A model generated the notes under the pieces. That model did no database searches, was not told the origin of the DNA, and worked only from the letters and a program-made list of their open reading frames with translations. Made by a program: the position numbers and the translations under genes. Of a stretch of DNA of 64,000 nt, positions 10,299 through 46,081 are shown one piece after another (the stretch's first letter is position 1; every line of letters starts with the position of its first letter). This DNA is from Miltoncostaea oceani (GTDB taxonomy: Bacteria > Actinomycetota > Thermoleophilia > Miltoncostaeales > Miltoncostaeaceae), in assembly GCF_018141545.1 (NCBI RefSeq), contig NZ_CP064356.1, forward strand, positions 3,299,001-3,363,000, given 5' to 3'.

Positions 10299-11209
10299 GC
10301 GACGTCAGCATCCGCGCCGGGCGCCGGCGCATCCGCATCAGCCACGCCGACCGGGTCGTGTTCCCCGACCCGGGCCTGACGAAGGAGGACCTGGCGCGGC
10401 ACTACGCGACCGTCGGCCCGGTGATGGTCCCCCACGTCCGCGACCGGCCGCTCGCGCTGCAGAGCTTCCCGAAGGGCGTCGGGGAGGGGGGGTTCTTCCT
10501 GAAGAACGTCCCCCGGCACTTCCCCGACTGGATCGCGACCGTCGAGGTGCCGCGCCGCGAGGGCGGCACGCTCCGCCAGGTGCTCGCGCAGGACACGGCG
10601 GCGCTCGTGTACCTCGCCGGCCAGAACGTCGTCACACCGCACGTCGGCACCAGCCGCGCCGACCGCCTCGACGTGCCCGACCGCCTCGTGTTCGACCTCG
10701 ACCCCACCACGACGCGGTTCGAGGAGGTCCGGGCGGCGGCCCTCGACCTGGGGGCGTTGCTGCGCGACATCGGGATGACGCCGTACGTGATGACGACGGG
10801 CTCGAGGGGGATGCACGTCGTCGCCCCGCTCCGCCGGTCGGCCGCCCACGACGAGGTGCACGCGTTCTCGCGGGAGGTGGCCGCGGCCCTCGTGGCGCGC
10901 AGCCCCGGCACCCTGACGGCCGAGTTCATGCGGGACAGGCGCGGCGACCGGATCTACGTCGACGTCGCCCGCAACCGCTACGCGCAGCACGCCGTCGCCC
11001 CGTACGCGGTGCGCCCCCTGCCGGGGGCGCCCGTCGCGACGCCGCTCACCTGGGACGAGGCGGCCGACCCGGCGATCGGCCCGCAGGCGTTCGACGTCCA
11101 CGCGGTCGCCGCGCGGCTCGAGCGGACGGGCGACCCGTGGGACGCCATGTCCCGCCATGCGCGCGCCATCGGCCCGGCGCGGCGTGCCCTGGCCGCGCTA
11201 GCGTCGTGA
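10295..11209 (+). CDS. ligD: LigD polymerase-domain protein (primase-type, NHEJ)
   Basis: A 304-aa archaeo-eukaryotic-primase-fold polymerase of the LigD PolDom family, which fills gaps and adds ribonucleotides at double-strand ends. Visible: ISHADRVVFPDPGLTKEDLARHY at the N-terminus, the QSFPKGV/FFLKNVP segments, catalytic Asp pair in VFDLDPT, TGSRGMHVV and the late VDVARN segment. The ATG overlaps the ligase stop by 4 bp. In most bacteria this domain is fused to ligase; here the order ligase-polymerase is split. The first residues (SIRAGRRRIRISH) match the usual family start, supporting this ATG. Confidence 0.92.
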   Translation: MSDVSIRAGRRRIRISHADRVVFPDPGLTKEDLARHYATVGPVMVPHVRDRPLALQSFPKGVGEGGFFLKNVPRHFPDWIATVEVPRREGGTLRQVLAQDTAALVYLAGQNVVTPHVGTSRADRLDVPDRLVFDLDPTTTRFEEVRAAALDLGALLRDIGMTPYVMTTGSRGMHVVAPLRRSAAHDEVHAFSREVAAALVARSPGTLTAEFMRDRRGDRIYVDVARNRYAQHAVAPYAVRPLPGAPVATPLTWDEAADPAIGPQAFDVHAVAARLERTGDPWDAMSRHARAIGPARRALAALAS

Positions 11210-33295: not shown

Positions 33296-33299
33296 GGCC

Positions 33300-34079
33300 T
33301 CACCCCAGTTCCCCGAGCAGGTCGGCCACCGACTCCACCACCCGCGACGGCAGGTACGGGAACCGGCCGATCTGCTCGCGCGACGTGAGGCCGGTGAGGA
33401 CGAGGATCGTCTCGAGCCCCGCCTCGATGCCCGCCACGACGTCGGTGTCCATGCGGTCGCCCACCATCGCCGTCGTCTCCGAGTGGGCGTCGATCGCGTT
33501 GAGGGCGGAGCGCATCATCAGCGGGTTCGGCTTGCCCACGTAGTAGGGCTCGACGCCCGTCGCCCGCGAGATCAGCGCCGCCACCGCGCCCGTCGCCGGG
33601 AGCAGCCCGTCGAGGGTCGGCCCCGTCGGGTCGGGGTTCGTCGCGATGAACCGCGCCCCCGCGTCGATCAGCCGGATCGCGCGGGTGATGCGCTCGAAGC
33701 TGTAGCTGCGCGTCTCGCCGAGGACGACGTAGTCCGGCGACCGCTCGGTCAGCGTGTAGCCGGCGTCGTGGAGGGCCGTCGTGAGGCCCGCCTCGCCGAC
33801 GACGAATGCCGAGCCGCCGGGGCGCTGGTCGTCGAGGAAGTGCGCCGTCGCGAGCGCCGAGGTCCAGATGTTCGACTCGGGCACCTCGATCCCGCTGCCG
33901 CGCAGGCGCGCCGCGAGGTCGCGGGGCGTGTAGATCGAGTTGTTGGTGAGCACGAGGAACGGCGTCCCGCGCTCGCGCAGGGCCGCGACGAACGTGTCCG
34001 CGCCGGGGACGGCGGTCTCCTCGCGCACGAGGACGCCGTCCATGTCCATCAGCCAGGAGTCGATGCGGCGCCGTCCCAC
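33300..34079 (-). CDS. HAD-IIA hydrolase (NagD/phosphoglycolate-type)
   Basis: A 259-aa HAD-superfamily phosphatase. Motif [13 protein letters not shown] (DxD nucleophile near residue 12), motif [21 protein letters not shown], motif [15 protein letters not shown] and motif [19 protein letters not shown], with a C2-type cap of the IIA class (NagD, pNPPase, phosphoglycolate phosphatase). Likely dephosphorylates a small sugar phosphate or nucleotide metabolite. ATG 34079 gives the complete family length. It lies immediately upstream of, and coupled to, the LuxR ATPase gene; no clear reason for the pairing. Confidence 0.9.
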
Positions 34080-34126
34080 GCACGGAGGGTAGTCCGTGCG
34101 GAGCCCCCCGTGCGAGGGCGTCCCGC

Positions 34127-34369
34127 TCAGGCGGGGGCGCCCGCCTCCTGCGTGTTCCAGCGCATGCGGAGCGTGAAGTCGGCGTGGCTGCGGTTCCGGC
34201 GGAGGTCCACCGTCACGTCGAGCGGGTCGACGACCGCCGTCGGCGACTGCGACTCGTCGTAGCCGAGCTGGACCTGGCCCGCGGCGATCTCGTCCGCCAG
34301 GGCGTGGAGCTGCCGTGCCACCAGGGCGCGGGTCGCCCTCTCACTCGTGTCGAAGACGTGCTTGACCAT
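34127..34369 (-). CDS. amphi-Trp-like small protein 1
   Basis: An 80-aa protein: [64 protein letters not shown]. An N-terminal amphipathic helix with an Ala/Leu face, an alternating beta region and a closing RMRW match the amphi-Trp domain family, which is of unknown function. About 50% identical to the next upstream gene product. ATG 34369 with GGGAGG. A hairpin separates the pair, so they are probably separate transcripts. Confidence 0.65.
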
Positions 34370-34416
34370 GCCGGTCCTCCCATCGCGTGTCGCGTGTGCT
34401 CCCTTCCCCTCGGCCG

Positions 34417-34448
34417 CGGGGCCCGCGGGCATGAGCCCGCGGGCCCCG
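34417..34448 (-). terminator. strong hairpin between amphi-Trp paralogues
   Basis: CGGGGCCCGCGGGC, loop ATGA, GCCCGCGGGCCCCG: a 14-bp perfect stem just after the stop of the upstream paralogue on the minus strand. Confidence 0.65.
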
Positions 34449-34482
34449 GGGTCGCCGGGAGGTCGCGCCGCGACCGGCGTGG

Positions 34483-34707
34483 TCAGGCCGGCGTCCACCG
34501 CAGCCGGATGGCGAGCTCGGCGCGGTGCCGGTCCTGCGTCAGGTCGAGCGTGACGTCGACCGGGTCGACGATCACCGTCGGGGCGTGCGCCTCGTCGTAG
34601 GCGAGGTCGATGTTCCCGGAGGCGAACTGGTCGGCGAGGTCGCGGAGCTGACGCGCGACCAGCTCGTGGGTGGCCCTCTCCCTCATGTCGAAGACGTGGC
34701 GATGCAT
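34483..34707 (-). CDS. amphi-Trp-like small protein 2
   Basis: A 74-aa paralogue of the next gene: MRERATHELVARQLRDLADQFASGNIDLAYDEAHAPTVIVDPVDVTLDLTQDRHRAELAIRLRW. Shared pattern: helix ERATxxLVARQLxxLAD, VDPxDVTxDL beta strand and LRxRW ending. Each paralogue has its own terminator/ribosome site, suggesting separate regulation. Family assignment as above, moderately sure. Confidence 0.65.
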   Translation of the reverse strand: MHRHVFDMRERATHELVARQLRDLADQFASGNIDLAYDEAHAPTVIVDPVDVTLDLTQDRHRAELAIRLRWTPA

Positions 34708-42832: not shown

Positions 42833-43210
42833 ATGGCGCAGGAGACCCTCACGATCAACGAGGCCGCGGAGACGACCGGGTGGTCGCCCCGCATGCTGCG
42901 CTACATCGAGAGCATCGGGCTCGTGGTGCCGGAGCGGTCCCCCTCGGGGTACCGCCTCTACGGCGCCCCCCAGCTGCAGCGTCTGCGCACGCTGCGGGAG
43001 CTGCTCGACGACCACGGCGTGGCCCTCGGCGAGGTGGGTTTCGCCCGCCGGCTGCGCGAGGAGCGCGACCTCGCCTCGGCGGTGGACGGCTGGCTCGACG
43101 CCCGCCCGGTCCTTCCCGAGGCCGACATCACCCCGGCCGACTGGCTCCGGCACGAGCAGGACAAGCACATGCGCCTGCTGCGCCTCGCCGCCGCCCCATC
43201 GACGAAATGA
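42833..43210 (+). CDS. MerR-family regulator
   Basis: A 125-aa protein: [63 protein letters not shown], the standard MerR winged-HTH and wing, then a short C-terminal region without Cys metal sites or a large ligand domain, so it may sense through dimer contacts or a partner. Ten bases before ahcY with no terminator, so it is likely the regulator of SAH recycling. ATG 42833 follows GGTCGCGGACGG. Confidence 0.88.
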
Positions 43211-43220
43211 CGGAGACCGC

Positions 43221-44678
<1,458 letters not shown>

Positions 44679-44692
44679 TCCTCACGGGTACC

Positions 44693-44722
44693 GGGGCGGG
44701 CGTTTGAAGGGGCGCCCGCCCC
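44693..44722 (+). terminator. ahcY terminator
   Basis: GGGGCGGGCG, a 10-nt loop, CGCCCGCCCC, then GTGTTTCG, 14 bases after the ahcY stop. A classic actinobacterial hairpin. Confidence 0.75.
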
Positions 44723-44760
44723 GTGTTTCGCGTCAAGTACATGGGGCCGACCATTATTTA

Positions 44761-44789
44761 TTGACAAGGGTCTGTTCCAGCACTAACAT
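44761..44789 (+). promoter_or_regulatory. near-consensus sigma70-type promoter in AT-rich insertion
   Basis: TTGACA (44761-44766), 17-bp spacer, TAACAT (44784-44789), inside an AT-rich stretch (ATTATTTATTGACA) unlike the rest of the window. It should drive the following hypothetical gene with a 5' leader of about 28 nt. Confidence 0.7.
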
Positions 44790-44823
44790 GGGGTCGCTAC
44801 CATCTACTTTGGAGGGGCGGTCG

Positions 44824-45420
44824 ATGTCCAGCGCCCACGGACTTCTCATCCGATTGGACCACCACATCCGGGCGATCGCGGAGATCCGCGAAGCCCTCGT
44901 CACCGAACTGGAGGGGGAGTCACCAACCCAGGGAGCGTGGCGACGCGTCCCGGTCTTCGACCAGAGCGACTTCCGCTACCCGTGGCCCGACGCGACGGAG
45001 GACGTGATCCCCGCGTTCCACGTATGGCAGGCCCCGTCCGACCTCGGGGGAGGGCTTTTCGGTGTCGGCGTCAATCTCGACCCGACCTCGGTCTTCGGTG
45101 GTCCCCGGAGGTACGCCGGCGTTTTCGTCCTCGGCGCCGAGGGGGGTTCCGCTCGGCACGTGGTCAACTTCAACGAGGACGACCAAGGCGGTTGGGCGGC
45201 GCTCATCAGGGGGGCGGGCGCCAGTGGCCGCGGCTACTTCCGCGTGGGCGATTCGCTGCCGGACGGCTACGAGGCCCTCGAGATCGCGCGCCACTCTGAC
45301 CGACTCGCGAAGGGGTGGGACCGAGCGTGCGTGGTTGCCGGTCCGGATGACGAGATCACGATGCTGACGCACGCGGCGCTGCAGGCCCGCGACCGGGACA
45401 TACGACCGATGGGATCGTGA
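44824..45420 (+). CDS. orphan hypothetical protein, likely acquired
   Basis: A 198-aa protein: N-terminal helical part (HGLLIRLDHHIRAIAEIREALVTELEGE), then a beta-rich globular domain (FRYPWPDATEDVIPAFHVWQAPSDLGGGLFGVGVNLDPTSVFG). No signal peptide, TM helix or recognised motif. GGAGGGG lies 9 bases before ATG 44824. It has its own near-consensus promoter, softer base composition and more T-containing codons than neighbours, and its 3' end abuts a truncated alpha/beta-hydrolase stump, suggesting insertion. Function unknown; a role in defence or immunity would be a guess. Confidence 0.75.
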   Translation: MSSAHGLLIRLDHHIRAIAEIREALVTELEGESPTQGAWRRVPVFDQSDFRYPWPDATEDVIPAFHVWQAPSDLGGGLFGVGVNLDPTSVFGGPRRYAGVFVLGAEGGSARHVVNFNEDDQGGWAALIRGAGASGRGYFRVGDSLPDGYEALEIARHSDRLAKGWDRACVVAGPDDEITMLTHAALQARDRDIRPMGS

Positions 45421-45447
45421 CGCGGTCCTGAGTCCCCGCGCGGAAGC

Positions 45448-45573
45448 TGGGAGGTGCCGGGGAGCCCGCACATCGGCGGGCTGGAGACCCAGCCCGCCGA
45501 GTACGAACGTCGCGTCGCCGGCTTCTTCGACGACGCGCTGGACGTGGGGAGCCCTAGACGCCCCAGCGCTTGA
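45448..45573 (+). pseudogene. C-terminal remnant of an alpha/beta hydrolase
   Basis: Reading from 45448 gives WEVPGSPHIGGLETQPAEYERRVAGFFDDAL, the typical last 30 residues of alpha/beta hydrolases: the catalytic-His loop in ...PHIGGL and then QPxEYERRVxxFF. There is no upstream nucleophile part; the frame is closed by the neighbouring gene's end about 25 bp before. It overlaps the convergent PRC-barrel gene by 20 bp. Likely left after the insertion of the AT-richer gene. Confidence 0.65.
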
Positions 45574-46081
45574 CGGCGACGCGGTTCGGGTCGTCGCCGC
45601 GGTTGATCGCGTCGGCCACCTCGGCCTCGGCGATCTCCGGGGTCGGCGCCGGCGTCGTCTGCCGGGCGCGCACGGCGTCCCAGTAGCCCGTGCGGCCGTA
45701 GTGGCCGTAGGTGCGGTCCTCGTGCTCGCGGGTGAAGTCCTCGTCGCGCTCGAACGAGGGGCCCTCCCTGAGCTGGTCCTTGTCGTACGGCAGGACGAGG
45801 TACTCCTCGCCGTCCACCGACTCCATGCGGACGTCGTCGACGGGGATCATGTGGCGCTTCGTGCCGAACCAGCCGGTCTTCACGGCCAGGTAGCGCACGT
45901 ACGAGCCCTGGTCGTCGACGTAGGCGTCGTCGACCGTGCCAACCTTGTCGCCGCTGCTGTCGCGGACCTCCATGCCCCCCAGGTTCTCCAGGGGCGGGAT
46001 GGACGTCGTGGTCGGATAGTCCTCGGGGCCGAGGAGGCCGCCGGTGTCGTGATCGCGGCGGTCGTCGCGTCGTGTCGTCAT
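45554..46081 (-). CDS. PRC-barrel domain protein
   Basis: A 175-aa protein. Residues about 25-105 are a PRC barrel: LGGMEVRDSSGDKVGTVDDAYVDDQGSYVRYLAVKTGWFG...HMIPVDDVR, found in RNA-processing, photosynthetic and stress proteins. The C-terminus (EHEDRTYGHYGRTGYWDAVR) resembles general-stress YsnF-type tails seen in actinobacteria. Start ATG 46081 with AAGGAGA. Divergent from the next gene. Probably a stress or envelope-associated protein. Confidence 0.85.
   Translation of the reverse strand: MTTRRDDRRDHDTGGLLGPEDYPTTTSIPPLENLGGMEVRDSSGDKVGTVDDAYVDDQGSYVRYLAVKTGWFGTKRHMIPVDDVRMESVDGEEYLVLPYDKDQLREGPSFERDEDFTREHEDRTYGHYGRTGYWDAVRARQTTPAPTPEIAEAEVADAINRGDDPNRVAVKRWGV

Follow-up and report, generated by a model that had tools for sequence, protein, structure and literature searches.

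We take the closest counterparts of the gene described here to be the horizontally acquired ORFan-like accessory genes, a general class with which it shares its small size, its atypical composition, its patchy occurrence and the lack of any known domain, as well as the integrase genes that lie near its homologues in some relatives. It departs from that class in having a near-consensus promoter of its own, and in that no element is left around it. The remnant that follows it is best compared with S15-like alpha/beta hydrolases with a long N-terminal part, with which it has the last ~35 residues in common, including EYERRV..FFD and an HxGG motif that presumably holds the catalytic His. In contrast to those hydrolases, the fragment is without ~400 residues and the natural stop, and cannot be an active enzyme.

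Both lie between the 3' ends of two convergent genes, ahcY and a PRC-barrel protein gene, in the window, by which we mean the whole 64-kb stretch of DNA that was analysed. The features of the locus are as follows.

43221–44678, + strand: ahcY, S-adenosylhomocysteine hydrolase, left flank (Pfam AdoHcyase, E 8.7e-153)
44692–44723, + strand: hairpin after ahcY, probably its terminator (perfect 11-bp inverted repeat)
44761–44789, + strand: TTGACA-17-TAACAT, the small gene's sigma-70-like promoter (10/12 consensus matches)
44811–44815, + strand: Shine-Dalgarno GGAGG, 8 nt before the small gene's ATG, as read from the sequence
44824–45420, + strand: 198-aa accessory gene of an unnamed family so far confined to the class (five homologues, GC3 0.838)
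45421–45573, + strand: open remnant in the small gene's frame, directly 3' of its stop and reaching into the 3' end of the opposite-strand PRC gene
45436–45540, + strand: C-terminal fragment of an S15-like alpha/beta hydrolase, with HxGG and an EYERRVxxFFD tail, natural stop missing
45473–45500, + strand: 12-bp perfect hairpin inside the hydrolase fragment, a possible terminator
45554–46081, − strand: PRC-barrel protein gene, right flank (Pfam PRC, E 3.3e-12)

Overall, we think it quite probable that the 864-bp segment between the two flanking genes combines a gained accessory gene, presumably donated by a member of the class with a lower G+C content, with a pseudogene fragment.

The small gene and its protein family

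The open frame at 44824–45420 is a real gene. Many long spurious frames arise in GC-rich DNA, and a chance frame is what one would otherwise suspect here, but we give that reading practically no credence: five homologous ORFs share residues with the small ORF, which refutes it, the frame has the best codon score of the six, and a promoter-like site and a Shine-Dalgarno sequence are in place before it. The promoter-like site is the sole one in the window, on either strand, that agrees with the consensus at 10 or more of its 12 positions, and in the 4.5-kb region one such site was found against 0.1 expected, an expectation calculated at the looser threshold of 9/12. The gene would be driven by this promoter of its own, and its product is probably a soluble cytoplasmic protein.

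A first-pass annotation of this DNA had pointed to the near-consensus promoter, to a softer base composition and to an unrecognised 198-aa protein, and all three observations hold. The G+C content is 0.525 in the 99-bp leader and 0.688 in the ORF, against 0.751 in the window. Plain G+C is a weak argument for foreignness, since ahcY itself, at 0.677, is about level with the small ORF. The GC3 of the small gene, 0.838, lies below that of all 57 called genes of the window (0.919–0.994), a comparison with typical genes that is biased against atypical ones, because the gene caller was trained on native-like genes and left the small ORF uncalled. The protein itself has no match in Pfam, NCBIfam, PHROG, PADLOC or PDB.

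The same annotation had called the gene an orphan, which is right for the order, where none of the 41 other genomes carries it, and wrong for the class, in which five homologues with 28–38% identity were found in other families (phmmer E 7.2e-21 to 2.6e-10, with the set of five as the database). Four came from a class sample of 399 genomes that included the window's own (4/398 others; E 5.4e-17, 3.0e-9, 1.3e-6 and 9.8e-6 per genome), and the fifth, in G795, from searching the 146 genomes of a single family with a profile. Two families are represented among their hosts, one by three genera and the other by a single genus. The five scored 39.7–73.6 bits in BLAST, against a maximum of 25.8 for 200 shuffles of the small protein. 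The sequences form one family with a conserved core at about residues 52–195, in which 25 columns are invariant in five sequences, while the N-terminus differs among homologues. A further seven weak matches in a phylum sample of 396 (E 2.8e-4 to 7.5e-3) were set aside, as the five-sequence profile does not recognise their loci.

Within their own genomes, the homologues are unremarkable in composition: their GC3 of 0.781–0.935 fits neighbour medians of 0.855–0.948, and the closest of them, in G595, has a GC3 of 0.886 among neighbours at 0.857. A Phage_integrase gene lies close to the homologue in G595 and in G531; in the stretches read around the other three, an integrase gene is absent. Three of the five (in G718, G531 and G795) are adjoined by a divergent, unnamed gene of ~104 aa (L085 1888–2211, L086 3470–3784, L093 6346–6660), for which two scanned copies of the three gave no Pfam match at E 0.001. 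This gene is a possible functional partner; it was not seen beside the window copy.

Nothing in the collections searched points to a role in defence, phages or plasmids. None of the PADLOC anti-phage models was matched by the small protein or four of its homologues, and homologues were absent from the plasmids and viral contigs searched. Among phages, the window protein as query returned no homologue; with a homologue as query, the endolysin of Bacillus phage Silence appeared at E 0.01, a match that falls in a gene annotated as an amidase and that we judge to be chance. A search of genome contigs for relatives returned none for the small protein and none for the PRC protein, and open-library listings showed nothing specific in the literature, which is not proof of absence from print. 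Single-sequence AlphaFold2 models were unusable (pLDDT 40.5 for the full protein, 38.6 for the core). Our guess is that the protein is candidate accessory cargo, perhaps stress-related, with an N-terminal helix and a beta-rich core.

The interval between ahcY and the PRC gene in relatives

ahcY is present in all three other congeners, at 87–90% identity. In one of them, G001, the PRC gene (68% identical) directly follows it, and the interval amounts to 46 bp without homology, or ~60 bp from stop to stop, compared with 864 bp in the window; neither the small gene nor a hydrolase is found in it. Past ahcY, G001 has a similar G+C-rich, terminator-like hairpin; that of the window (44692–44723) folds at −35.9 kcal/mol with a z of −3.81. 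In the other two congeners, G002 and G003, different genes follow ahcY and the PRC homologues are on other contigs. Because these two are without the ahcY–PRC adjacency, only G001 informs on the interval itself, and a loss in G001 retains a small probability.

The first-pass annotation had proposed that this interval be compared in close relatives and that an intact hydrolase be looked for there. The comparison bears out one half of its proposal, in that G001 shows the two flanking genes adjacent and without an insert, and goes against the other half, in that no hydrolase is present in its interval. Nor did relatives turn out to share orphan and stump with no intact hydrolase, for G001 carries neither.

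The region around the locus is fluid: comparison with a 38-kb stretch of G001 gave a collinear match for 17 of the 37 window genes counted from 25007 onwards (the small gene and 36 called ones), and the others may lie elsewhere in G001. A MerR-type regulator recognised by Pfam is located at 42833–43210 of the window, between a transporter-like gene and ahcY; a MerR-type gene stands beside ahcY in G002 and G003 as well, and is missing there in G001. Directly after ahcY in G002 (L025 1597–2306, − strand) are what look by eye like a PIN-type toxin and antitoxin, and none are seen in G003. The strongest 40-nt hairpin of the window's + strand (34407–34460, −43.9 kcal/mol) separates two short genes, at 34127–34369 and 34483–34707, both of which match one G001 gene.

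One observation speaks for the opposite history, in which the genus had the small gene and the fragment from the start and G001 lost both by deletion, with relaxed codon selection behind the low GC3: G001 is without other window genes, the MerR-type gene for example, that is present in G002 and G003. We consider this very unlikely. The small gene is missing from all 41 further genomes in the order, ahcY is followed by different genes in G002 and G003, and the GC3 of the small gene matches that of the lineages in which its homologues occur. The direction of change would be a gain in the window's lineage rather than a loss in G001.

The hydrolase fragment and isolated tails elsewhere

The hydrolase stump reported by the first-pass annotation is real. 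The fragment, PRGSWEVPGSPHIGGLETQPAEYERRVAGFFDDAL, can be aligned to the final ~35 residues of intact ORFs that are about 450–540 aa long; its best match is in genome G427 (E 3.2e-13, 65% identity), and an intact relative, P0004, matches Pfam PF02129 Peptidase_S15 at E 6.8e-13. In the class sample, 25 of the 399 genomes, the window's own included, matched the stump at E ≤ 1e-4. Of the 28 listed matches outside the window's own genome, 20 were inspected (18 loci, L065–L082, together with L029 and G001) and the other 8 were left out. Since 17 of the 18 loci align with the intact relative over most of its length, the exception being L078 in G475 with the tail only, the window copy is a remnant.

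No complete hydrolase catalytic domain was found in the window. When hydrolase relatives were used as tblastn queries, only the tail at 45436–45549 matched as hydrolase, with no hydrolase-like sequence directly upstream of 45436; a second match, at 33297–34064, is due to the part of the G001 query frame that lies outside the hydrolase. In the window's own genome, the intact P0004 (447 residues) matches only over residues 407–444, and the same query gave no match in G001, G002 or G003. Two other stump matches in the window's genome (E 0.007 and 0.28) were rejected, as their host ORFs, judged by eye, are unlike this hydrolase. At the other end, the similarity to most relatives stops at 45540 and the likeness to the PRC flank of G001 starts at 45543, which means that the natural stop is also missing. 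The fragment is a pseudogene piece truncated at both ends.

These observations bear on the mechanism favoured by the first-pass annotation, namely that the ahcY–PRC interval originally contained a complete hydrolase gene, whose 5' part gave way to the new gene. Such a replacement would account for a fragment that starts within 15 bp of the small gene's stop, on the same strand and in the same frame, and the tail in G475 likewise starts a few bases past the stop of an unrelated gene on the same strand. Against it, the G001 interval has no hydrolase, no intact member was found in the window's genome or in the three congeners, and the natural end of the fragment is lost on the PRC side as well. 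With the one informative relative lacking a hydrolase and the fragment lacking both ends, the replacement model is unsupported, and we regard it as unlikely.

The hairpin within the fragment possibly serves as a terminator, in which case the small gene's transcript may end there. Its best 40-nt fold is strong, at −30.1 kcal/mol, but 27 out of 1000 120-nt pieces drawn at random from the window fold at least as well, and the fragment as a whole has a folding z of −1.73.

Three genomes, the window's own, G001 and G475, each have an isolated hydrolase tail, at loci unrelated to one another and without an intact gene on the spot. The one in G001 (C1:3032507–3032668, L042 ~10507–10668) is an intergenic C-terminal tail ~10 kb upstream of ahcY; the counterparts of the two genes that border it are separated by only 48 bp in the window (34079–34127). 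The one in G475 (L094 6391–6606, − strand) lies a few bases after an unrelated sensor-type gene on the same strand, so that there, as in the window, an unrelated gene on the same strand ends no more than ~15 bp before the tail begins. In these two places the tail could be taken for a left-over attachment site or a retained hairpin terminator, and the 3' end of the hydrolase gene might be imagined as a recurrent point of recombination or integration. We think this a long shot; the query was the tail itself, which favours tails, and the recurrence is thus only suggestive.

Origin of the segment and its meaning

The claim of the first-pass annotation that the segment was inserted, or imported, is supported by the short interval in G001, by the foreign GC3 and by the integrase genes near two of the five homologues. 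A gain is the simplest account of this GC3, of the patchy distribution, of a closest homologue whose neighbours have a GC3 of ~0.86 and of the proximity of two homologues to integrases. The pathway can be outlined as follows. The segment at 44679–45542 would have been gained in the window's lineage, and G001 does not have it, apart from the like hairpin after ahcY. The small gene was most likely acquired horizontally, the donor being presumably a lineage of this class with a lower G+C content. As for a mobile integrative element, no tRNA and no convincing flanking repeats mark the ends of 44679–45542, and no recombinase-like ORF lies inside it. The hydrolase fragment need not have come with the gene, as it was found at none of the five homologue loci.

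The small protein represents a newly added and rare family, known to date from six genomes, all in one class, and missing from the libraries that were searched. Its locus offers a clear case of a gene, probably a recent gain, that has a promoter of its own and stands between conserved neighbours, and the mechanism would be the ordinary one of gene gain and gene decay.
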